Below are positions 1 through 32,862 of a stretch of DNA of 33,202 nucleotides, one piece after another (within the stretch, counting starts at the first letter, position 1; every line of letters begins with the position of its first letter). Below the pieces are notes generated by a model, which was not told the origin of the DNA, searched no databases, and saw only the letters and a program-made list of their open reading frames with translations. The position numbers and the translations under genes are program-made. Origin of the DNA: Lentisphaeria bacterium (lineage in GTDB: Bacteria > Verrucomicrobiota > Lentisphaeria > JABSQK01 > CAJWLW01); assembly GCA_030754995.1 (NCBI GenBank), contig JASLZG010000001.1:30796-63997 (forward strand). Direction: 5' to 3'.

Positions 1-1812
1 CGGATGCCCGCCCACCGCGTAACCGAGCGCGGTGGAATACCAGTTTGCACTCTGGTTGATATAGGTGTGATGACCGCCGTGCGAACGTGCCATATGCGAG
101 GCCTGTCGCAGGTAGTCAATCCAGTCTGTCCAGCGGCGGCGCGGATCCGTTGGGTTATGGAAGGCCATTACGATGCTCTCATCCATCATCAGGGAGCCGT
201 CCCGGCAGTAGATTTTCCAGGTGTCACTCGACTTCGGCCCCAGCAGGCTGCGGCCCAGGTTGTTGCCGATTCCCGCCGGTGGATCGAGGGCGGCCAGCAC
301 CTGCTTGACGTTGGGGAAGTGCTCGGTCGAGAGCGGCGCGGCATCGTAGCGGAACGCTTCCCAACCGTACTGCGCGGCGCTCGCGACGATCTGCTCGATA
401 TGGTACTCCAGGTAAGTCTTGCCGTCGAACGGAGAGACCACGTCGAAGTGCATTTCAATATGGGGATAGGCGGTTCCGGGGAAGAATTCGCCATTCATGT
501 ATTTCTCCATGACAGCGGTATTGAACCCGGCGTCCCTGTACCATTCGGGGTGGATTCGGATGACCTCGAAACCGGGCCAGCCGAACGGGATCGCGTTCAA
601 ATAGGCGACCGGCGCGATACCGTGCGCCTTCATCAGGCGGATGACGTGCAGGAGCTGCTTGCGCGAGACGATGTAGAAGGTCTGGCCGGTGAGGTATAGC
701 TCGTCGGTCTCCTCCGTCATGACGGTCGCATCCTCGCGCGCCCAGGCGAAGTACTCGTAGTAGGTGACGTAGTCGCGGCGCGAGGATTCGATGGCCAGCG
801 TGGTGTCCTTGACGTACTGGTCCCAGTTGTCCATCACCTTCTCTTTGAATCCCGCCAGGCCCAGGTGCCCGGAAGACGAGAGGAAGTAGGGGACATCGAA
901 CAAGCCGTTGCCCTGGATCATGCAGCGGAACGGGCTGTCGCTGACGGCGAACACGTCGCCGCGTTGATCGATCACTTGCCCATCCAGCAGCAGTTCACCG
1001 ACCGCCTCATAGCCGCCGTCTTCGGCGGGGACGACAAAGGGCACGGTGCTGCTGACGGTGGCCAACGCCGGCACCGTGAAACGCTTTGCCCGGCCGGGGA
1101 TTCGCTGGGCGGTGTCGGTGGTTACCACGGGGCGCACGTCGACCGTCTGCGGCTCGCCGGTGGCGTTCGTCAGGCGGATGTCCAGCGCCGCCTTTTCGGC
1201 ATGCTTGTAACGGAGCTTGACCGGGCGCGCCCAGCTGATGGATACCGGCAAGTCGAGCTTCTCCAGCTTCATCGAGGACTTCTCCACCTGCACCGTGCCG
1301 GCGTCACAGGTTGTGTCACCGACATACATCAGCCCCGCCTTCGCGGGCTTGCCGCTCTCCACATCAAAGGCCAGCGAGAACTCCTGCCACCTGCCCGGCG
1401 CGTCAAAGACGCAGCCGCTCATGGAGACGGATGCATCCGTCAAGGGGATAGGTCCATACCCGGTCGGGATTATCAGGCCGCCGGCCGCCCGGCTTACCAA
1501 CGCCTGAAGCACCAGCGTGCTGACGCCGAGCTTCTCGGTGCGGGCCCGCAGTGTGACGCGATAACGGCCCGGCTGCGTGACCGGCTCCCAGTCGACCACG
1601 GGGACCTGGGGATAGTACTTGGGCCCCAGCTGGACGCCGCCTTTAACAAAGAGCAGATCGTTCTCCAGCACCGTGCCGTTTTCCACTTCGCGGGTGTCGG
1701 GGCCGCTCTTCCATGGCATCAACCCGGCGGCATCGCCTACCGAAGACAACAGAGCTGCGCAGAAAATTGCCGGCATCACATGAGTCCGGGCAAACCCGGT
1801 GGTACTTGTCAT
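1..1812 (-). CDS. Putative exported glycoside hydrolase-like protein (TIM-barrel-like), C-terminus beyond the left edge
   Basis: Manual reverse-strand translation from ATG at 1812 is open for 604 codons to base 1: MTSTTGFARTHVMPAIFCAALLSSVGDAAGLMPWKSG... (signal-peptide-like N-terminus) ...WEAFRYDAAPLSTEHFPNVKQVL...LMDESIVMAFHNP...HTYINQSANWYSTALGYAVGGHP. Absent from the ORF track because it has no stop inside the window; the + ORFs here are antisense. Confidence 0.75.
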   Translation of the reverse strand, partial: MTSTTGFARTHVMPAIFCAALLSSVGDAAGLMPWKSGPDTREVENGTVLENDLLFVKGGVQLGPKYYPQVPVVDWEPVTQPGRYRVTLRARTEKLGVSTLVLQALVSRAAGGLIIPTGYGPIPLTDASVSMSGCVFDAPGRWQEFSLAFDVESGKPAKAGLMYVGDTTCDAGTVQVEKSSMKLEKLDLPVSISWARPVKLRYKHAEKAALDIRLTNATGEPQTVDVRPVVTTDTAQRIPGRAKRFTVPALATVSSTVPFVVPAEDGGYEAVGELLLDGQVIDQRGDVFAVSDSPFRCMIQGNGLFDVPYFLSSSGHLGLAGFKEKVMDNWDQYVKDTTLAIESSRRDYVTYYEYFAWAREDATVMTEETDELYLTGQTFYIVSRKQLLHVIRLMKAHGIAPVAYLNAIPFGWPGFEVIRIHPEWYRDAGFNTAVMEKYMNGEFFPGTAYPHIEMHFDVVSPFDGKTYLEYHIEQIVASAAQYGWEAFRYDAAPLSTEHFPNVKQVLAALDPPAGIGNNLGRSLLGPKSSDTWKIYCRDGSLMMDESIVMAFHNPTDPRRRWTDWIDYLRQASHMARSHGGHHTYINQSANWYSTALGYAVGGHP

Positions 1813-1921
1813 ATTCTCGATTCTCCCCCTCCCGTCCGGCGCTGGGGTGCAATCCAGCAACGGGCAGATTTTGTCGTGCGGTGACGGCGCTGCGCCCTGC
1901 CGCCACAGTTATCGATCATTT

Positions 1922-3568: not shown

Positions 3569-5845
3569 TCACGTCTCCAACACCCTGATTTCATAGATGC
3601 CGCCCTCCTTGCCTTTCTTGAGCTGTGCGACGACCCTGAGTGCTGTAGTGGTTAGCGGTTCGAAATTGACCCGGCTGAACCACACCGTGTCGGTGGTGTA
3701 ACCGGACGGGCTGACGACCGGGCGCCAATTCTCCTTCGCATCGAGGTATTCGACCCGCCAGGACTCCGGCGCCCACACCTCGCCGGTGAAATACTGGTTG
3801 ACCCAGTACACCTCGAGGGCGAACACCGCCAGCGCTTTCTCAAAAGTCAGGCACAACCATTCCTCGGTACCGGTCCGCTGTGCCCAATTGAACCAGGTCA
3901 TCCCACTCCAGCGCGCCGGGCTGGACGGGAAGAGACCGTCGTTGACCGACTCGATCGACGATCCTTCACCAGCAGCGGAGGCTGTCAGCGCGGCGCCCAT
4001 TGCCGCCGTAGGCTCGACCGGGTCCTCGGCGACCAGTGTCGTCTCCGGCATCCAGACCAGCATCTCCCCGGCTTGCCGATTGTCCTTGGCATAAAACGGT
4101 ATTGCTTTGAGCAGCGTCTCCGTTTCCGGTTCGGCTGGCCGGTAGAGCTCGTCCCGCCACCGCGTCGGGGCGCGCCGGCGTCCGGCCGCAGTTACCGTCA
4201 CCACGCCGCCGAGGAGGTCTTTCTCGAAAGACTCTTTGAGCTCGGCGTCGCGCGGCAACGCCAGGTCAGTGACCCTGCCGCCGTTGTCGGTCGCCTCGAA
4301 GCAATAAAGCAGCGGCCCTCTCTGCACAGCGACACAGCCGGGCGAAGTCTTGATCTGCGGGTTGGCTTCCAGGCGCTCCGTCACCATTGACAGGTCCAGT
4401 TCGACTGCATCGCCGGTCTGCCACTGGCGCCTGAGCATTACGTAGCCGTCCGGCTCCTGCGAAGCGTTCGACGGCTCGCCGTTGACCGTGACCGAGAACG
4501 CCTTGCTCCATCCGGGCACGCGGAGCATGAGCGCGAACTCCGTCGGCTGCGGCAGCTTGATCTCGAACCTGACACGCGACTCCCACGGGTAGTCGGTAAC
4601 CTGTGCCAGCTCGACCTCCTGTCCCGACAGTTCGATCCGAGCCGTACTGCCGACGAAGAGATTCACATATATCGCATCATCGGATACGGCATACATCCAT
4701 TCGCTCACCTCGAGCATGCAGCGGACCCAGTTCGGCGGGCAACACCAGATGCGCGGGTCGCGATGCGTGTGGCCGCGGCTGAAGAGTGCGACGGAATAGA
4801 AGGTGCCGTCGCCCACGAGGCCGCCGGAGCCGAGGAATCCGTTATAGAGGGCCTGTTCCATGATATCGGCGTAGCGCGTGTCGGGCCGGGCGAGGAGCAG
4901 GCGATAGCTCATGAAAATGTTGCCGAGCGTCGCACACATCTCACAGTTGCTTTTCTTTTCGGAGAGATCATAAGGTTTGTCAAACCCTTCCTTGGTGCAC
5001 ACCTCGCCGAGTCCGCCATTGACGTACATCTTGCGATTCACCATGTCGCGCCAGACCCGGTCACCGGTTGCCAGCAGCTCTTCGTCTGCGGTGCGAATTG
5101 CCACATCGATCATGCCGGCGAAGAAATTCGTCGCGCGCACCGCGTGGCCGTGGCCCTGGGCGTCTTCGATGTGTTCGGCATGGCGGGCGTATTCGATCAG
5201 TGTTCGCGACTGCTCCAGGTAGGCGCTCTCGCCGGTGGCGTCGTACAACTTGGCCAGCGCCATTTCGACCCCCGGATGCCCGGCCCGGTCGAAAGTCACT
5301 TTACCGCTGCGAAAGACATCGACGATGTGGTCGGCCAGCCGCCGGGCGACGTCGAGCAGCGCGTGCTTTCCACTCAACCGATAGTAGGCGGCGGCGGCTT
5401 CCATGAGGTGGCCCGCCGCGAACAGTTCATGGTTGTCCATATCGCTCCAGCGTGGCGTCGACCGCACCTGGTGGCAACTATGCAGGTACCCGTCGCTTTC
5501 CTGGGCTTTGGCCACCACGTCGATACGCCGGTCCAGTTCCGCCTCGAGCTCGGCATCCGGCGCCAGCGCCAGGCCGGCTGCCATGGCTTCCAGCGTGTTG
5601 TGCACGAACATGTCCGACCAGCAATGCTGGTCGGTGCTGGGCGTGTACTCGCCTTCCACCTCATGCATTCCGGCCAAATACTCGAAGTCACCTATCAGCG
5701 GCTGGGAGGTCTCGAGAAGGTGCGGCAAATACACCTCGCGAACGCGCTTCAACCACGGCGCCCAGAAGTTGTCGGTCAGGCGCACATCCTCGAATCTCAC
5801 CGGCCTCAGCGGCTGGCGGCCGTCAATCTGTTGGTCGTCAGTCAA
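3569..5845 (-). CDS. GH127/DUF1680 family beta-L-arabinofuranosidase with C-terminal discoidin-like region (paralog A)
   Basis: 758 aa; RFEDVRLTDNFWAPWLKRVREVYLPHLLETSQPLIGDFEYLAG, NCEMCATLGN, IWCCPPNWVRCMLE (E-x-C and CC motifs of the GH127 Zn/Cys site). The start codon is TTG (caa at 5843-5845) with GGGGAGG upstream. Confidence 0.92.
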   Translation of the reverse strand: MTDDQQIDGRQPLRPVRFEDVRLTDNFWAPWLKRVREVYLPHLLETSQPLIGDFEYLAGMHEVEGEYTPSTDQHCWSDMFVHNTLEAMAAGLALAPDAELEAELDRRIDVVAKAQESDGYLHSCHQVRSTPRWSDMDNHELFAAGHLMEAAAAYYRLSGKHALLDVARRLADHIVDVFRSGKVTFDRAGHPGVEMALAKLYDATGESAYLEQSRTLIEYARHAEHIEDAQGHGHAVRATNFFAGMIDVAIRTADEELLATGDRVWRDMVNRKMYVNGGLGEVCTKEGFDKPYDLSEKKSNCEMCATLGNIFMSYRLLLARPDTRYADIMEQALYNGFLGSGGLVGDGTFYSVALFSRGHTHRDPRIWCCPPNWVRCMLEVSEWMYAVSDDAIYVNLFVGSTARIELSGQEVELAQVTDYPWESRVRFEIKLPQPTEFALMLRVPGWSKAFSVTVNGEPSNASQEPDGYVMLRRQWQTGDAVELDLSMVTERLEANPQIKTSPGCVAVQRGPLLYCFEATDNGGRVTDLALPRDAELKESFEKDLLGGVVTVTAAGRRRAPTRWRDELYRPAEPETETLLKAIPFYAKDNRQAGEMLVWMPETTLVAEDPVEPTAAMGAALTASAAGEGSSIESVNDGLFPSSPARWSGMTWFNWAQRTGTEEWLCLTFEKALAVFALEVYWVNQYFTGEVWAPESWRVEYLDAKENWRPVVSPSGYTTDTVWFSRVNFEPLTTTALRVVAQLKKGKEGGIYEIRVLET

Positions 5846-5891
5846 TGGCCCAACCTCCCCTTTTGCTGTCCCTGTTATTGTTCATCGACGC

Positions 5892-8192
5892 TCAACGATC
5901 TTCATGCTTGCCATCCGTCTCCAGCACCCTGACCTGGTAGATGCCTGCCTGCTTGCCTTCCTTCAGCTGCGCGACAACCCTGAGCGCCTTGGTTCGCACC
6001 GGCTCGAAATTGACCCTGCTGAACCACACCTGGTCGGTGGTGTAGCCCGATGGGCTGATGACCGGCTGCCACTTTTCCCTCTCATCGAGGTATTCGACTC
6101 GCCAGGACTCGGGAGCCCACGTGGTGCCATTCCAGAACTCGTCCAGCCAGTACACCTTGACGGCAAACAGTTCCAGGCTCTTCCCGAAAGCCAGGCTCAG
6201 CCATTCTTCAGTACCGAGCCGATCTCCCCACTTGAAGCCGGGCGTCTCCCCCCAGCGCTGCGGGCTTGAAGGAACGAGCCCGTCGTTGACCGCCTCGGGC
6301 GGCCACTCGTCAACCGAAACAGAAGCCTCTACCTTCGCGTCCATCGCTGCCGTGGCACCCAGTTGATCTTCGGCAACAAGCGTCGTCTCGGGGATCCAGA
6401 CCAGCATCTCCCCTGCTTGCCGATTGTCCCTGGCGTAAAAAGGCACCGCTTTCAGAATCGTCTCCTTTTCCGGCTTGACCGGACGGTAGAGTTCGTCCTT
6501 CCACTCGTGTGACGTCCTGCGGCGCCCGGCTGCACTCACCGTCACCACGCCGCCCAGGACATCTTCTTCAAAGAGTTCCTTCAGCTCGGCGCCACGCGGC
6601 AGCGCCAGGTCCATAACCTTCCCACCGTTATCCATCGCCTCGAAGCAGTAAAGGATCGGCCCTCTCCTCAAGGCCACACATCCCGGTGAGGTCTTGATTT
6701 GAGGGTTGGCTTCCAGGCGTTCGGTTTCCATTGACAGATTCAGGTCGACCACATCGCCCGCTTTCCACTCGCGGTTGAAAGTTACATAGCCATCCTGCCC
6801 CTGTAAAGCGTTTAATTTTTCGCCATTAACCCTGGTCGAAAACCCCTTGCTCCATCCGGGCACCCGGAGTTTCAGGGAGAAATTCGTTGGACCGGGCACC
6901 TTGACCTCAAATCTCACCTGCGGATTCCAGGGGTAGTCGGTGACCTGGGTCAGTTCGATCTTTTGCCCGGAGACCTCCATCTGGGCCGTACTGCCGGCAA
7001 AGAGATTCACGTATATCTGGTCATCGGAAACAGCGTATATCCATTCGCTCATCTCGAGCATACAGCGCGTCCAGTTCGGCGGACAACACCAGATGCGCTG
7101 GTCGCGACGAGTGTGGCCGCGGCTGAAAATCGACACGGAATAGAAGATACCCCTGCCGTCCATGCCGCCGGAGCCGAGGAATCCGTTATAGAGCGCCTGC
7201 TCGATGATGTCGGCATAGCGCGTGTCGGGCCGGGCAAGGATCAAGCGGTGACTCAGAAGAATACTTCCCAGCGCGGCGCACATCTCAGCGTTGCACTTCC
7301 TGTCGGAGAGGTCATAGGGTTTGTAGAATCCTTCCAGCGTACAGACTTCACCGAGCCCGCCGTGAACATACATTCTGCGATTCACCATGTCACGCCAGGC
7401 CCGGTCGGCGGCGGTCAGGAGCTCTTCATCCCCGGTGCGTATTGCCACATCTACCATCCCCGCGAACAGATTCGTCGTTCGCACCGCGTGTCCGTCGCCG
7501 TGGGCATCGTCGATATGTTCGGCATGGCGGGCGTACTCGACCAGGGACCGCGCCCGCTCGAGATATGCTTCCTTGCCGGTAACATCGTATAACTTGGCGA
7601 ATCCCATTTCCACGGCAGCGCAACCGGACCGATCGAAAGGTACGTGCCCGCCTTCGAACTGATCGACAATGTGGTCGGCCATCCGCACGGCAACGTCCAG
7701 CAGCGTCCGCTTTCCGGTTAACCGGCAGTGAGCCGCCGCGGCTTCCATGAGATGGGCCGCCACGAACAGTTCATCGCCGTCAATATCGTTCAAGCGTGGT
7801 TTGGCGCGCACCTGGAAGTAGCCGTTAAGGTACCCATCGCTGTCCTGGGCCCTGGCCATTATGTCAATGAGCCGGTCCAATTCGGACTCGAGCTCGACAT
7901 CGGGCTCCATGGCCAAACAGGCAGCCATGGCCTCCATCGTGTTGTACACGAACATATCCGACCAGCAAGGATGGCTGCAGGGCACATAGTCTCCCTCCAC
8001 CTGATGCATCCCGGCCAGGTACTCGAAGTCGCGCACCAGCGGCCGGGTGGTCTCCAGAAGATGCGGCAATGTGACATCGCGAATGCGCTTCAGCCACGGT
8101 GACCAGAAGTTGTCGTGCAGGCGGACATCCTCGAATCTCACCGGCCTCAGCGGCCGGCGGCCGGCAATCTGTTCACCGTCGGTCAATGGCAC
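5892..8192 (-). CDS. GH127/DUF1680 family beta-L-arabinofuranosidase (paralog B)
   Basis: 766 aa, collinear with paralog A along its length; CNAEMCAALGS and IWCCPPNWTRCMLEMSEW motifs retained. Start is GTG at 8192, or TTG at 8186 aligning with paralog A's start. Confidence 0.92.
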   Translation of the reverse strand: MPLTDGEQIAGRRPLRPVRFEDVRLHDNFWSPWLKRIRDVTLPHLLETTRPLVRDFEYLAGMHQVEGDYVPCSHPCWSDMFVYNTMEAMAACLAMEPDVELESELDRLIDIMARAQDSDGYLNGYFQVRAKPRLNDIDGDELFVAAHLMEAAAAHCRLTGKRTLLDVAVRMADHIVDQFEGGHVPFDRSGCAAVEMGFAKLYDVTGKEAYLERARSLVEYARHAEHIDDAHGDGHAVRTTNLFAGMVDVAIRTGDEELLTAADRAWRDMVNRRMYVHGGLGEVCTLEGFYKPYDLSDRKCNAEMCAALGSILLSHRLILARPDTRYADIIEQALYNGFLGSGGMDGRGIFYSVSIFSRGHTRRDQRIWCCPPNWTRCMLEMSEWIYAVSDDQIYVNLFAGSTAQMEVSGQKIELTQVTDYPWNPQVRFEVKVPGPTNFSLKLRVPGWSKGFSTRVNGEKLNALQGQDGYVTFNREWKAGDVVDLNLSMETERLEANPQIKTSPGCVALRRGPILYCFEAMDNGGKVMDLALPRGAELKELFEEDVLGGVVTVSAAGRRRTSHEWKDELYRPVKPEKETILKAVPFYARDNRQAGEMLVWIPETTLVAEDQLGATAAMDAKVEASVSVDEWPPEAVNDGLVPSSPQRWGETPGFKWGDRLGTEEWLSLAFGKSLELFAVKVYWLDEFWNGTTWAPESWRVEYLDEREKWQPVISPSGYTTDQVWFSRVNFEPVRTKALRVVAQLKEGKQAGIYQVRVLETDGKHEDR

Positions 8193-22865: not shown

Positions 22866-25508
22866 CTAGGCTTCCGTGGGCAACACCAGCACCAGGTAGT
22901 CGTCGTCTGATTCCGGCATGTCGATGACGCTCGAGCCGTGGATGGTTTCGGTTCGCACACAGCGTTTTTCATTCAGCGAAAAGACCTGGCACAGCAGCGG
23001 CTGCGCCGGCAGGTTCTGCAGGTCGATCGTGCATGCCGCCGGCTCCGGCATCCGGTTGAGGTTGCCGGCGAGATAGACGTGTCCGTCACGGACGATGTGG
23101 TTCGTGCAGTTGTAAAAGTAGGCGATCAGCGTCTGCCGGTCCGCAGACCACAGGTAGCTCGCCCGATAGTCCGCTGAAACACGCAGCGGCCCGGATGACA
23201 GAACGTCGTCGGTCAGCGTCGGTGCGGTGTAGGATTCGGTCGCATCGAGCATCGTGACGCCGGCCGGTTCCGGGTCGCCCGGTTGCACGTAACTGGTCAT
23301 CAGCGGCAGTGCCGAAAAGAACGCCTCGTATTCCTCCAACACCAGGCGGCCGTCGAAACCATCCGGCCCGCTCCCGACATTCGTGCCATCGACCCGGATC
23401 GCGACCGGTGCCTGGAGGAACGCCTGCGACCAGTCGACGGCGTCGCGAACCTGGCGGAACACTATCCGTTCGTCTTCGGCATGTTGCTCGCCCCAGGTGA
23501 TCAGCAGCGGGATACGATGGACCAGCCCGATATAGAGATTGTCGCGCAGCCGCCGCCGATAGTGCCCGGTACCGCACCAGGTATCCTCCTGGCCCATGAA
23601 CCGTTTGTACAGGTGCGGGCACGGCCAGCTGCCCTCGCCCATGAAGTAGTCTCCGAGCTGCAGGAACTTGAGCTCGATGGCGAGATCGAGTTCCGGCTTC
23701 AGTTCCATGCCCATCCAGTACATGCGGCTACCCGCCAGCTCCGCTTCCCAGGCGACGTCGGTCCGGCAGCCCTCGGGGAAGCCGGCCGTCCACTCATAGA
23801 CGATCCACGCCGCCCGGTGTGCGTCCGGCAGGTCGAAGAGGCGGTGGATCGGTTCGATTATATAGATGTGGTTCGGCATCTGTTTCTGCATGAAACGATA
23901 GGCGTCGTTGACCCGCTCCGGGCCGGCGGCAATGTCACCCTCGCCCGAGGTCGAGACGCAGAAGAGTGCCGTTTCGTCGCGGTACATGTCGGCGAAATCC
24001 TGCAGGTACCCATGAAAGAGTTCATCGAACCGCGACCCGTTGCCGGGGTGCGTCCAGTCCTCGTCCTTGAAGCCCGCCTCGAGATACTGGCGCAGCACCG
24101 GTGTCTGGTGTCCCTGCGTCTGACTGGTGCCGTATGGGTAGTGGGAAACGGCCTGCTCCAGAACGAGGCCGTGGCGCGCCGCCACCCGCATGACCAGCGC
24201 CAACTGCTCTGCCGCGCGGGGTATGATGTGCCCGCAAGCGTCGAGCTTTTCCCAGATACCCCAACCGACCAGCAGGTGAATCAGATCCCAGCCGCACGAC
24301 TGCAGGTATTCGAAGCGCCAGGTCAGTTCCGCCTCGGTCATCGCGTCCCAGTAATGCCAGTGCTCAGCCTCCGGATTAGCGTCCAGCTCCGCCTGTCCCT
24401 GCACCAGTGTTTCTTCCGGCGTGCCGATGTCACGGACAAATGCCATGTCCGCGGCAGAGCCGCTGAGCGGCCCCTGCACCTTGCCGTCCCGGACCAGGCT
24501 GTGGGCCGCCGATTCATAGCTGAGGAAAATGCCGTCCGTCACCCGGAGCACCAGTGAGCTCGTCGCCTCAATGGCACCGGCGGCGGTCAGTTCCGCCTCG
24601 TGTTCACCCGCCGGCAAGTCGGTAAAGGAGCCGCTCCACACACCGTCGAGCGCAATCAGCTCGGCGACGTGGTCCCCTGACCTGGCGGTCACCTGCACCG
24701 TCTGGGGATCCGGGACCTGGCCGTCCGCGCCGATGACGACAGCCGAGATCGGCATGCCTGTTTTTTCGATATTCTGTGCCGTTCGCACGACCGGCAGGCA
24801 GGGCACCAGCGCCGCGTGCCCCGCCATCGCTGCGGCAAAAGTGATGGACGCTTCGGCTTCCGGCGTTTCCGTCCACAGGCCGACGGCGATATGCACCGCC
24901 GCAAAGTGGTGCGCGTAACCTTTGGCTGCCATGGCGGCAGCCAGGTCCAGGGTCACGGCGCCCGGCTCCGTGTGCCAGTTGCTGGCCAGCAGGGGCGGAC
25001 CGGTGCGGCTCTTGACCAGCACACATACCTGCCACTGCGCGGTGGCGTCGCTGACCGTGACACTGAGAATCGGATGCTGGTCGAGGTTGACCTGCAGCTC
25101 GGGCAACGCCACAACTTCCCGCTGCCGGGCCGAGCGCTTTTCGAACGTCAGTTCGGAACCGGCATGCTGCAGCGGATTGGCCGGATCACTGAACCAGTCG
25201 CTGACCCGCGCCTCGCCGGTGAGCTCGAGATTGCCGGCGGCTTCATACGCCAGGACGGTGCGGTTGGGCGTCGCGGCCCAGCGCATGGCGCGGTTGAACG
25301 TCCGCGACTGCCCGAGAAAGGCGCAATACTCCGGCTCCGTTTGCCGTCCAGGTATGCGCGGTTCATGGTAGACCTCATCGGCGTGCCCCTCGAGCGCGAA
25401 TTCCGGGCGTTCCGTTGAAACAGTGCCGTCATCCCACTGCACGGTTCCCCATGAGCCAATGCCGGCAGCCCGGCGATTCTCCGGTTCGTTTGTTTCATCA
25501 TCACTCAT
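22866..25508 (-). CDS. Large uncharacterised glycoside hydrolase-like protein (TIM-barrel, clan-A-like)
   Basis: 880 aa; beta-rich N-terminal region then TIM-barrel-like LTWRFEYLQSCGWDLIHLLVGWGIWEKLDACGHIIPRAAEQLALVMRVAARHGLVLEQAVSHYPYG...DETALFCVSTSGEGD...PNHIYIIEP. AAGGA upstream of ATG at 25508. Confidence 0.65.
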   Translation of the reverse strand: MSDDETNEPENRRAAGIGSWGTVQWDDGTVSTERPEFALEGHADEVYHEPRIPGRQTEPEYCAFLGQSRTFNRAMRWAATPNRTVLAYEAAGNLELTGEARVSDWFSDPANPLQHAGSELTFEKRSARQREVVALPELQVNLDQHPILSVTVSDATAQWQVCVLVKSRTGPPLLASNWHTEPGAVTLDLAAAMAAKGYAHHFAAVHIAVGLWTETPEAEASITFAAAMAGHAALVPCLPVVRTAQNIEKTGMPISAVVIGADGQVPDPQTVQVTARSGDHVAELIALDGVWSGSFTDLPAGEHEAELTAAGAIEATSSLVLRVTDGIFLSYESAAHSLVRDGKVQGPLSGSAADMAFVRDIGTPEETLVQGQAELDANPEAEHWHYWDAMTEAELTWRFEYLQSCGWDLIHLLVGWGIWEKLDACGHIIPRAAEQLALVMRVAARHGLVLEQAVSHYPYGTSQTQGHQTPVLRQYLEAGFKDEDWTHPGNGSRFDELFHGYLQDFADMYRDETALFCVSTSGEGDIAAGPERVNDAYRFMQKQMPNHIYIIEPIHRLFDLPDAHRAAWIVYEWTAGFPEGCRTDVAWEAELAGSRMYWMGMELKPELDLAIELKFLQLGDYFMGEGSWPCPHLYKRFMGQEDTWCGTGHYRRRLRDNLYIGLVHRIPLLITWGEQHAEDERIVFRQVRDAVDWSQAFLQAPVAIRVDGTNVGSGPDGFDGRLVLEEYEAFFSALPLMTSYVQPGDPEPAGVTMLDATESYTAPTLTDDVLSSGPLRVSADYRASYLWSADRQTLIAYFYNCTNHIVRDGHVYLAGNLNRMPEPAACTIDLQNLPAQPLLCQVFSLNEKRCVRTETIHGSSVIDMPESDDDYLVLVLPTEA

Positions 25509-25598: not shown

Positions 25599-25703
25599 TT
25601 ACGCCTCCGGCACCAGGATTTCGTAAATGCCCGCTTCCTGGTCTTCGTGGTGCGGCGCGACAATTCTGAGAGCGCTGGTGGTTGGACGAGCATCGATCTG
25701 CAG
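25599..25703 (-). pseudogene. Orphan C-terminal remnant resembling the discoidin-like tail of the GH127 genes
   Basis: Reverse-strand reading DLQIDARPTTSALRIVAPHHEDQEAGIYEILVPEA* aligns with GH127-A tail FEPLTTTALRVVAQLKKGKEGGIYEIRVLET* and GH127-B tail FEPVRTKALRVVAQLKEGKQAGIYQVRVLET; no upstream start in this frame. Confidence 0.7.
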
Positions 25704-25704
25704 A

Positions 25705-27861
25705 TCACACCGACGACGGTGCCCCGGTGATCCGGTAGATCGTGTAGGGTTCCGTTCTCAGCGTCCCGCGGGTATCCTCGGGTGTGGCGGATTCACCGGA
25801 AATGCGCTCGACGCGAGCGCTGTCCGGCAGCTCATAATCGAACGCCGCGTAGGCGAACAGAACGCGGCCCGCCGCCGCCTGCCACTCAACCCCATGGTCG
25901 TCGGGCAGCAACCGGCGCGTCTCCATAAACGACTTGACCTGGTTGAAGGTATGGTAGTAGCTTGTCATCGCATCGAGGTTGCTCGGCCACTGGTCAATGA
26001 TATCGTCCTCGTGTTCGCCGAGCATGAGCAGCGAGTAGTTGGCCAGGGCGCGAAAACACTGCTCCTTCACCTGCTGCCCGGTCCGGCTCGGGTGTACGTG
26101 CACCATTGGCAGTGTGCCGACCAGCATGTCCTCGTGGCCGACCCACCAGGACCAGTCGTTCTGACCGGCTACGGCATGCGTCGCGGCGGGGTTGTCCGTC
26201 ACGTTGTCGCCCATGCCGAAACGGCCGAAGCCCATGGGGCCGATTCCTTCATTGGATATCGCCTTGACGCCCATCTTGTTGAGGCCGCCGATGAAACGGG
26301 CGACGCCGGCGGTATTCGGCTGCATCCCGGCCTGGTAATCGACGCCCATCATGGCGAAATTACCGATCGAGTCGAAGAAGACATAGTCGAGCCCGTGCCG
26401 TTTCCATTCGGCAAACGACTCCAGCAGCCAGTCACAGGCGGCGTTCCAGTTGAGGCCCCAGGTGACATTGATGAGGGGGCCGCCCGAGTGGGGCCGCGTG
26501 TTGACGGCCCGGCAGGCGAACTCGGGATGCTCCTTGAAGATCGGGGCATTCGGCGAGAGCTGCCCACCAACCCATTGGCCGATCTCCAGCCCGGCAGCCT
26601 TACCCGCCGCGTAGAACGCTTCCCACGCCTCCCAGCCGCCCCAGAATTCGGCCATCCGATAGCGCCAGCAATTGCAGGTGGAGCTGGTGACCAGGTCACC
26701 GTGAATCCCGCTCTGCAATTTGTAGGTGTAGCCGTTTTCCGATATGTCCGATTCACCCATCGGCTCAGGGAACACGCGACGCACGCCGGCCGCCGCGAGG
26801 TCCGGCAGGTGTTCCGCCCAGCCGGCCAGCGCGTTTTCCGGGGCATACGGTTTGCCGGCGATATAGATCAGCAGCTTGCCGTCGTCGTCAAGCTCCGGCC
26901 GGTAGGCCAGCCCGCACTCGGGCAGGAGATAGGGGGTGTTGACATCGAAGGCGGCGCGCACCACCCCCTGCGCATGCCGCAGGGCCCGCAGCCAGCGGTC
27001 ATGCATCAGGTGCTCCGGCGCCCCCCCACCTGGCGGCGGCGGCGCCAGGAGGATGCATTTGCGCGGGAACACCAGGTCCTGGCCCAGCAGCTGCAGGCAC
27101 TTGTCGAGCACGAAGACGACGTCCTCGCCCTTGTTCTTCTGGATCATCGAATGCACGTCCACGAACTCCGGCCAGTAGCCGAGCAGGGAGCCTGCGGGCC
27201 CATACTGGAAATCGAAGCATTGCATGGGGCTGTAGCGTGAACTGAACTGGAACGAGACCCCATGCGGGTTGCCCGCCTGGCCCAGTTGCCGCCAGCAGGT
27301 CGTGGTAAAGTCGGTGTCCTTTTCACAGTAGTACACGGGCGGGTTCACCTGGCCCTGGCTCAGGAGCGTGTTCCCCGAGGCGCTCCCGCCCAGCTCCCAG
27401 GTCGCCGTCATGGTGATCTGGTGGATCGACCGCTGATCGCTGCGGAAGCTCAAGGCGTAGGAGAAACCGTCGTACTGCACGCCGTCCAGGGTAAGCTGTT
27501 CGGGCTTGAACCGCCATTCGACGCTATCCTCGAAGGGCCCGCCTTCGACCCGCGGCCAGGCCAGCTGACTGTCGTACTCGTCGCGATATTCCCCGAACAG
27601 TCCCTGCCTGCCGAAGGCGGTGGTCAGCAGCACGACATCGGCGCCGTCGGTTTGCACGTCGTCGAGGCGGAACGAGTCGTACCGAATGCCGTCCGGCGTC
27701 ATGATGTCGGGTCTCAGCGGGACGGTTGCCGACCGTATTGTGACACCGTTGACGGTGATCTTGCCCAAACCAGGGAACCGGTCTTCCCGGGACAACAGTT
27801 CAATGGTCGCTTGACCAACCCTTATTTCCGCCGGCGTCGATGCCGTTGCGTCTTCCCTCAT
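25705..27861 (-). CDS. Uncharacterised glycosidase-like protein (beta-sandwich plus TIM barrel)
   Basis: From ATG 27861 (GGGAGGGGAAAGGAGC upstream): MREDATASTPAEIRVGQATIELLSREDRFPGLGKITVNG...; barrel-like LNWNAACDWLLESFAEWKRHGLDYVFFDSIGNFAMMG... and GVKAISNEGIGPMGFGRFGMGD. Family not identified. Confidence 0.65.
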   Translation of the reverse strand: MREDATASTPAEIRVGQATIELLSREDRFPGLGKITVNGVTIRSATVPLRPDIMTPDGIRYDSFRLDDVQTDGADVVLLTTAFGRQGLFGEYRDEYDSQLAWPRVEGGPFEDSVEWRFKPEQLTLDGVQYDGFSYALSFRSDQRSIHQITMTATWELGGSASGNTLLSQGQVNPPVYYCEKDTDFTTTCWRQLGQAGNPHGVSFQFSSRYSPMQCFDFQYGPAGSLLGYWPEFVDVHSMIQKNKGEDVVFVLDKCLQLLGQDLVFPRKCILLAPPPPGGGAPEHLMHDRWLRALRHAQGVVRAAFDVNTPYLLPECGLAYRPELDDDGKLLIYIAGKPYAPENALAGWAEHLPDLAAAGVRRVFPEPMGESDISENGYTYKLQSGIHGDLVTSSTCNCWRYRMAEFWGGWEAWEAFYAAGKAAGLEIGQWVGGQLSPNAPIFKEHPEFACRAVNTRPHSGGPLINVTWGLNWNAACDWLLESFAEWKRHGLDYVFFDSIGNFAMMGVDYQAGMQPNTAGVARFIGGLNKMGVKAISNEGIGPMGFGRFGMGDNVTDNPAATHAVAGQNDWSWWVGHEDMLVGTLPMVHVHPSRTGQQVKEQCFRALANYSLLMLGEHEDDIIDQWPSNLDAMTSYYHTFNQVKSFMETRRLLPDDHGVEWQAAAGRVLFAYAAFDYELPDSARVERISGESATPEDTRGTLRTEPYTIYRITGAPSSV

Positions 27862-30614: not shown

Positions 30615-32018
30615 TCAGCAACGCTGCAAGGCTCGTTGCTCGATGGCGCGGAGTTCTTGCGACTGCTGATCGCTCAAGTGCCGCACGGGCGGCTGGGCGA
30701 GAATCTGCTCGGCTCGTTCGGCGGCGCCTTGGTTGAGATGTTTCGATCCGGCGGCTTCCCAGGTCTCGCGCTGGGTGCGCGCCATCAGCGGCGACTCGGA
30801 CAACGCCTCGCGGAAATGCCGCAGGGTGTGGTCGTGGGCCAGAAAGTCGCCGCCACCTGTCGCCACGTCGCGGATCGCCTCGTAGGCCAGGTTCTCGTCG
30901 TCCACGCACAGCCCGTCCCATATCCGCAGCAGCATGTCCGCACGCGCATCGTCGATTACCGCTTGCACGGGCGACAGGGCTTTCTGCGTTTCCAATTGTC
31001 CCACGCCCCAAATGACATTCGTGCCGGCCAGCACCTGCACCAAACCGATCATGGTCTTTTCGAGTGCCGCCTGGCCGTCGTCGATCAGGGCGTCGGTACA
31101 CATCCACGCGGCACTGGGCAGGCCGTAGTGGGCTGCCATTTGGGCCCCGGCGTGGGCCATCAAGCCGCATTCGGGGGCGCCCGAGAGGCAGGCGGCGCTG
31201 CGCATGTCTATCGTGTGTGCAAAACCAAGGTTGTGGATCACCGGACGGGCCGGTTCCAGGAGCTGGACCAGCACGACGCCCGCCAGGATTTCAGCGTTCG
31301 AAAGCGCGACGCTGCCGGCCAGGGTCACGGGGCTGGTCGCACCGGCAATCGGCTCGGCGTTGAGCATCAACGGCAGCTTGTGCCCCGACGATCGGCGCCA
31401 CAGTTCAACCGAAATCTGCGACCAGTGCAACGGGCTCAAGCAGGAATAGCCGAACGACACGAGCGGGTGTTCGGCCAGTGTGCGTCCGTCGGCGATCACC
31501 TGGGCCATCTCGAGAATCGGTTCGACGCCGGCGGCGGTGAACAAAAGCGGCCGAAGATGTTTGCCGCAGTTCTCGGCCAGGATCCGGAACCCGACGAAAT
31601 CGCGCGCCGGCGGCGGGACGTCCTCGATGCTGGTGCCGACCACGGCCGACACGTTGGGCAGCGCATCGGCCAGCCGCGCCATGTCAGCCAAGTCCTTGCT
31701 GACGATGGAACGGACCCGATTGTCCTCGATCCAGTTCAATGCGGCGCCGGTCCAAAACGTCGGACGTGAGCCGGTCCCGGACTCGCGGACGCCGCCGCGA
31801 CAATCGGCGAATCGGGCGGTCGGCGGCGCCAGCGCCAGGTACTCATCGACCATTTCCGGCGGCAGCAGCAAACGGTCATTCGTGCTTCCCTGGCCAGCCC
31901 CTGCCGACAAGGCCAGCTGCCTTAAACGATCGTCATCCACACGGACTCCGATCTCACTCAAGATCCGCCGGCTCGTCCGGTCGATCTCAGCAATCTGCTC
32001 GTGGCGCAACGTTGGCAT
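30615..32018 (-). CDS. Trimethylamine methyltransferase (MttB) family protein, non-pyrrolysine type
   Basis: 467 aa; IDRTSRRILSEIGVRVDDDRLRQLALSAGA...LLLPPEMVDEYLALAPPTARF (MttB N-terminus); MIGLVQVLAGTNVIWGVGQLETQKALSPVQAVIDDARADMLLRI; single ORF of near full family length without in-frame TAG. Confidence 0.88.
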   Translation of the reverse strand: MPTLRHEQIAEIDRTSRRILSEIGVRVDDDRLRQLALSAGAGQGSTNDRLLLPPEMVDEYLALAPPTARFADCRGGVRESGTGSRPTFWTGAALNWIEDNRVRSIVSKDLADMARLADALPNVSAVVGTSIEDVPPPARDFVGFRILAENCGKHLRPLLFTAAGVEPILEMAQVIADGRTLAEHPLVSFGYSCLSPLHWSQISVELWRRSSGHKLPLMLNAEPIAGATSPVTLAGSVALSNAEILAGVVLVQLLEPARPVIHNLGFAHTIDMRSAACLSGAPECGLMAHAGAQMAAHYGLPSAAWMCTDALIDDGQAALEKTMIGLVQVLAGTNVIWGVGQLETQKALSPVQAVIDDARADMLLRIWDGLCVDDENLAYEAIRDVATGGGDFLAHDHTLRHFREALSESPLMARTQRETWEAAGSKHLNQGAAERAEQILAQPPVRHLSDQQSQELRAIEQRALQRC

Positions 32019-32841
32019 GGAACTCTAGAAGGGGTAGGTCAACACACTTAACAGTGACAGCACTCCAGCGCGGGTCATTTGCAGAACGTTCACGGGATTC
32101 AGTCCTGGTTCACAAAGGAGCCTGAAGACACACCACCGGAGATTCTAACCCGGGGAAAGCGTTTCGCAATTCACTGTAGAGCTTTTATCACGACAGTATC
32201 ACGTCTGCCTGGAAGGAATCGCGGCGGAATGCAGCCGGTCTAACGCGGCGGGGAAGTGCCGGCAGCACCAGCACTCTCCGCCGCGCCTGCAGCGGCGGCT
32301 TGAACGAAGAGATGTGAGGCCTATTTACATCCTGGTCCTTGTGAAGGGACACGAAATCGTTTACATCAACAAGGTTCGGTGCTTTCGCGCGGCGCCATCC
32401 GGAAAGAGACGACGTTCCCTGGCATAAAACGTCGGGGAGCCATCCCCGCCAAGCAGTCTCATCGGCCGGCTGGAATGAAACGTGACAGCGTTATCATGTT
32501 ATCGCCAAGGTGCAATATTCACCACCTGCGAGGGGCGGTTCATGGCCGGGAAAACTTGCCGATGCCAGCCCTCGTTCCTTGATACTAATTGACCAAACGT
32601 TATACTTGGACAAGCCATTCCACCGGCGTGAAAATGGCTGACGCCACCGTCTTGACAAAGGAGTTTAACACCGGCCTCGGCCTGTTGAGCGCGGCCCGGG
32701 ATGCGCCAGGCAGTCATGGCGCCGGCACTCGCGCGTACCCAGAATAAGGGTACCGGGCAACCGTGGAAACACCCGTGCTTCAAGCAATGTCTACGTACCA
32801 CCCAACCCGACGGAGCGGGGGGATAGGAACCGATGTCTTGA

Positions 32842-32862
32842 CGGATGATCCGTGTTCATCCG
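32842..32862. promoter_or_regulatory. Perfect hairpin CGGATGA-tccgtgt-TCATCCG in the leader of the aldo/keto reductase
   Basis: 7-bp arms, 7-nt loop, 47 bp upstream of ATG 32909. Confidence 0.4.

Follow-up and report, generated by a model that had tools for sequence, protein, structure and literature searches.

A probable remnant of a third GH127-type gene in a sugar-degradation cluster of a Lentisphaeria bacterium

Gene remnants in bacteria are well known. Broken genes of prokaryotes are a subject of two papers (PMC9336565, PMC3899985). Here we describe a short unstarted reading frame that resembles the end of a GH127-type C-terminal domain. This domain is CBM32-like, or of the F5/8 type C (PF00754, PF22633), and belongs to proteins composed of PF07944, PF20736 and PF20737. 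The window, that is the whole stretch of DNA analysed, comprises 33,202 nucleotides of one contig of a Lentisphaeria bacterium, and the relevant features are compiled in Table 1.

Table 1. Features at the junction and related genes, with positions in the window
Feature	Positions	Strand	Basis
Remnant: open unstarted frame of 35 residues	25599..25706	(-)	resembles the two final beta-strands of the CBM32-like domain at the C-terminus of GH127-type proteins
Probable junction zone at the end of the 718-codon gene, from its conserved YRI codons to the TGA stop	25707..25735	(-)	indel-containing local alignments to GH127a/b
Upstream neighbour of 718 codons, counted from ATG, with its own end at or near the present stop	25705..27861	(-)	homolog ends
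Downstream neighbour, 880 codons, intact, with its own start and upstream spacer	22866..25508	(-)	
GH127 paralog a; nothing found is closer to the remnant than its last 34 residues	3569..5845	(-)	genome and phylum searches
GH127 paralog b; second closest within the genome	5892..8192	(-)	genome search

An unstarted frame with similarity to GH127 C-terminal domains

Translation of the minus strand from 25599 to 25706 yields the 35-residue peptide DLQIDARPTTSALRIVAPHHEDQEAGIYEILVPEA* (DLQID...LVPEA), which ends at a TAA stop codon. A preliminary description had placed such a peptide between the gene at 25705-27861 and that at 22866-25508, in a gap of 196 bp, and both the translation and the size of the gap bear this out. 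The missing start codon was confirmed as well: the frame is open back to ∼25757, and no ATG, GTG or TTG lies inside it. The tail does begin abruptly at the stop of the upstream gene. Its first codon shares two bases with the TGA stop, and relative to that gene it occupies the +1 frame, beginning right at the stop codon. The length of 741 codons from a TTG given for the upstream ORF did not hold; most likely this gene has 718 codons and starts at an ATG at 27861, which is preceded by a purine-rich stretch resembling a ribosome-binding site.

A six-frame search of all 4.94 Mb of the genome with the 35-mer found, apart from the tail itself, just the C-termini of both GH127 paralogs (58% identity, E 0.013, and 50% identity, E 0.05). 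In the reverse search, the GH127 C-terminal domain found the tail as the sole third match in the genome. Both genes proposed as relatives of the tail, at 3569-5845 and 5892-8192, were thus matched, and the matches are reciprocal at genome scale. An alignment "nearly residue for residue" was an overstatement, as 15/26 and 13/26 of the last 26 residues are identical (48% and 42% over 33 residues). Among all six-frame peptides of the contig the tail is third in rank, behind the two GH127 genes and above all others. In 388 genomes of the phylum nothing matched it more closely than GH127a on the same contig, as expected of a local paralog.

A profile was made of the last ∼34 columns of 30 related domains, gathered from 198 genomes of the class. 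Against this profile the tail scored 20.4 bits, while the best of 5000 shuffles reached 9.3. With the two paralogs of the window left out of the profile, the tail scored 12.7 bits and the best of 5000 shuffles 8.1. At the level of sequence, these comparisons establish homology of the tail to the end of a GH127-type C-terminal CBM32-like domain. The tail (∼34 aa) has no Pfam hit of its own. The GH127 domains PF07944, PF20736 and PF20737 are absent from it, and the likeness is limited to the accessory domain that ends such proteins.

The domain, its source gene and the probable deletion

For the intact domain of GH127a, the matches to PF00754 and PF22633 are weak; PF22633 is matched by 10 of 11 relatives. 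Its model (mean pLDDT 87) is a beta-sandwich, and among solved structures modules of the beta-galactosidase BgaA and CBM32 modules come nearest. The final two strands of the model (108-125 and 132-141) are those represented in the tail, which holds ∼34 of some 140 domain residues. Among the proteins examined, those with a terminal copy of the domain are GH127 enzymes, and the two internal copies examined belong to HZS_alpha-type proteins. The tail scored 10.8 bits with the set of terminal domains versus 7.7 with the internal set. Because of this better score, and because the remnant stops at the equivalent point, a GH127-type source is most likely, and we infer that the lost gene was a GH127 gene. 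In the tandem GH127 genes at 3569-8192, the NCBIfam model of aceric acid hydrolase (cut-off 950) gives gene a 398 bits, a score hinting at a possible role on rhamnogalacturonan-II-like sugars.

We consider the tail to be probably what is left, at the 3' end, of a third GH127-type gene formerly located between the 718- and 880-codon genes and since deleted. This gene would have had the same orientation as its neighbours and, at its end, a CBM32-like (F5/8 type C, discoidin-like) domain, as in both GH127 paralogs of the cluster. Through the deletion, the final ∼100-130 bases of the GH127-type gene would have come to follow the end of the 718-codon gene, and they would then have decayed. A deletion scar had been one of two explanations offered at the outset; it is supported by the homology of the tail and by the tail-less homologs of the upstream protein, with a technical caveat on the assembly. 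We infer both the deletion and its occurrence in the organism rather than in the assembly. Since the remnant has no start codon and retains only two strands of a beta-sandwich, it is probably not translated to a useful product.

Over 26 codons, tail and GH127a differ at 6, 7 and 11 first, second and third codon positions (pN 0.23, pS 0.56). In this test on 26 codons, the third-position excess indicates that the divergence mostly arose while the gene was coding. The tail is without a Phe found in 30/30 panel domains, and between Pro and Thr-Thr it has one residue fewer (F-x-P-V-x-T spacing); both changes fit decay. The DNA similarity to GH127a/b appears to continue upstream past the stop codon with small indels (CACCGTCGTCGGTGTGATCTG vs CACCGACACGGTGTGGTTCAG). 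For this extension the shuffle fractions are 0.043 and 0.092, uncorrected, and the presence of ∼25 further degraded bases of the lost domain at 25707..25735 is suggestive only. If the extension is real, the last codons and the stop of the 718-codon gene would be made from the lost domain, and the join would lie near the conserved TACCGGATC. A genome search with the tail DNA returned only the tail itself and, upstream of it, 27 bp matching the paralog of the 718-codon gene at its 3' end.

In no relative were both neighbours, or the intact arrangement, found. The flanking genes have few homologs, which are nowhere adjacent, and contigs with homologs of the 718-codon gene carry neither a GH127 neighbour nor an 880-codon homolog. 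The 880-codon protein (22866-25508) has no Pfam match and matched no named family by sequence. Its gene is rare in relatives, with one distant homolog besides itself in 60 genomes. A plasmid collection gave no match, and no RNA families were found in the window. At 32019-32851, ∼830 bp contain no convincing gene; the plus-strand gene that follows at 32852 resembles an aldo/keto reductase.

Other origins of the tail

The join may also have been made by the assembly. The contig carrying the 718-codon gene would then have been mis-joined to one with a GH127-type 3' end followed by the 880-codon gene, and the intact gene might persist in the organism or in another community member. We judge this unlikely but give it real weight, as the draft genome is fragmented (527 contigs) and 84% complete, and two 10-N gaps, at C111:25115-25124 and 30786-30795, interrupt the scaffold of the window. 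Beside the first gap, ∼150 bp of an aldehyde dehydrogenase gene (PF00171, E 8e-18) have been joined to an unrelated gene with the frame kept. The piece (L012:9115-9275, equal to C111:25115-25275, outside the window) sits between the signal-peptide-like start and the body of this gene, which is a paralog of the 1-1860 (-) gene of the window; the latter is without the insert. No second copy of the piece is present in the assembly. This fusion is likely a chimeric contig end or mis-join, and a likely mis-join elsewhere in the scaffold means that the event behind the remnant may be technical. The second gap lies directly before base 1 of the window, inside or beside the 1-1860 (-) gene.

The window itself, however, is free of Ns. 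No exact repeat >12 bases within the contig touches the junction and no long match exists elsewhere in the genome, so no assembly-graph repeat explains the join. Moreover, the remnant looks degraded at its 5' end, which would be needless if it had been cut from an intact gene, and the assembly showed no truncated GH127-type gene that carries the absent part of the domain.

A full third gene might never have been present at this site. A short GH127-type piece could have been copied or inserted here, or the 718-codon gene could have inserted into a GH127-type end. Two GH127 genes do lie 17-22 kb away on the same strand, but the protein identity of the tail to these paralogs is just 50-58%, and it is thus not a recent copy of either. 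A domain split by insertion, with its 5' part upstream of the 718-codon gene, was also considered and rejected, as no such part was found in the 164-bp spacer there or elsewhere in the assembly. We regard an ectopic fragment as improbable.

The second explanation offered at the outset was a frameshift: the 718-codon protein would naturally end in the tail, and one extra base would separate the two. The exact start of the tail at the stop codon, in the +1 frame, would suit this reading. A 69% paralog on the same contig (L011:5862-7991), however, ends ...EPYTIYRISE*, and a 59% homolog from a Phycisphaeraceae MAG ends ...TAYRITPGQRR*. Other, more distant homologs terminate in that column or close to it (...VYRMH*, ...VYRLLP*, ...VYRLSEPGPA*). 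Neither the tail in frame nor any piece of its domain occurs in any of the compared homologs, and the tail was rejected as a C-terminal extension of this protein. Furthermore, the tail is a quarter of its domain; fusing the frames would give no foldable domain, because ∼34 of some 140 residues are present. A frameshift is therefore very improbable. The 718-codon protein has no Pfam, NCBIfam or PDB match and matched no named family by sequence. The ∼710-residue family that it forms with the L011 copy, which also lacks a Pfam match, was found in 9/388 phylum genomes (E <= 1e-20). Conserved motifs such as QNDWSWWVGHEDM suggest that it may be an undescribed enzyme family.

Chance resemblance of a non-coding spacer might be suspected of a tail of just 35 residues with modest single-sequence E-values (0.013), but it is hardly credible: in the shuffled control 0/5000 shuffles reach the score of the tail with either profile, with or without the window paralogs, and the matches are reciprocal and exclusive at genome scale. 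In this lineage alone, +1 frameshifting at GTG-TGA might translate the tail as a short C-terminal extension of the 718-codon protein and so make a new fusion end; this is extremely improbable, and the open frame is the one point in its favour.

Comparison with known proteins and gene remnants

The remnant suggests that the sugar-degradation cluster, with its GH127, oligogalacturonate-lyase-like and sulfatase-like genes, once had a third GH127-type enzyme. Reading the tail as a remnant guards against a mistaken extension of the upstream gene, and the scaffold has joins in need of checking against reads. Outside the source genome the feature has little significance.

The remnant agrees with the GH127-type C-terminal domains in the residues of the two final strands, F-x-P-V-x-T-x-A-L-R ... 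G-G-I-Y-E-x-x-V, and in where the stop lies. It differs from GH127-type proteins in that about three quarters of the domain and the entire enzyme are missing and the invariant Phe is lost. Compared with other bacterial gene remnants (truncated pseudogenes), its one peculiarity is that it sits exactly at the stop codon of a neighbour, and it may, with lower probability, stem from the assembly. Like them, it is a short unstarted stretch from one end of a gene family, with intact flanks and no functional product expected. It has significant similarity to part of a family, lacks a start codon and is missing most of the gene. The feature is probably an ordinary gene remnant, a known kind of genetic scar.
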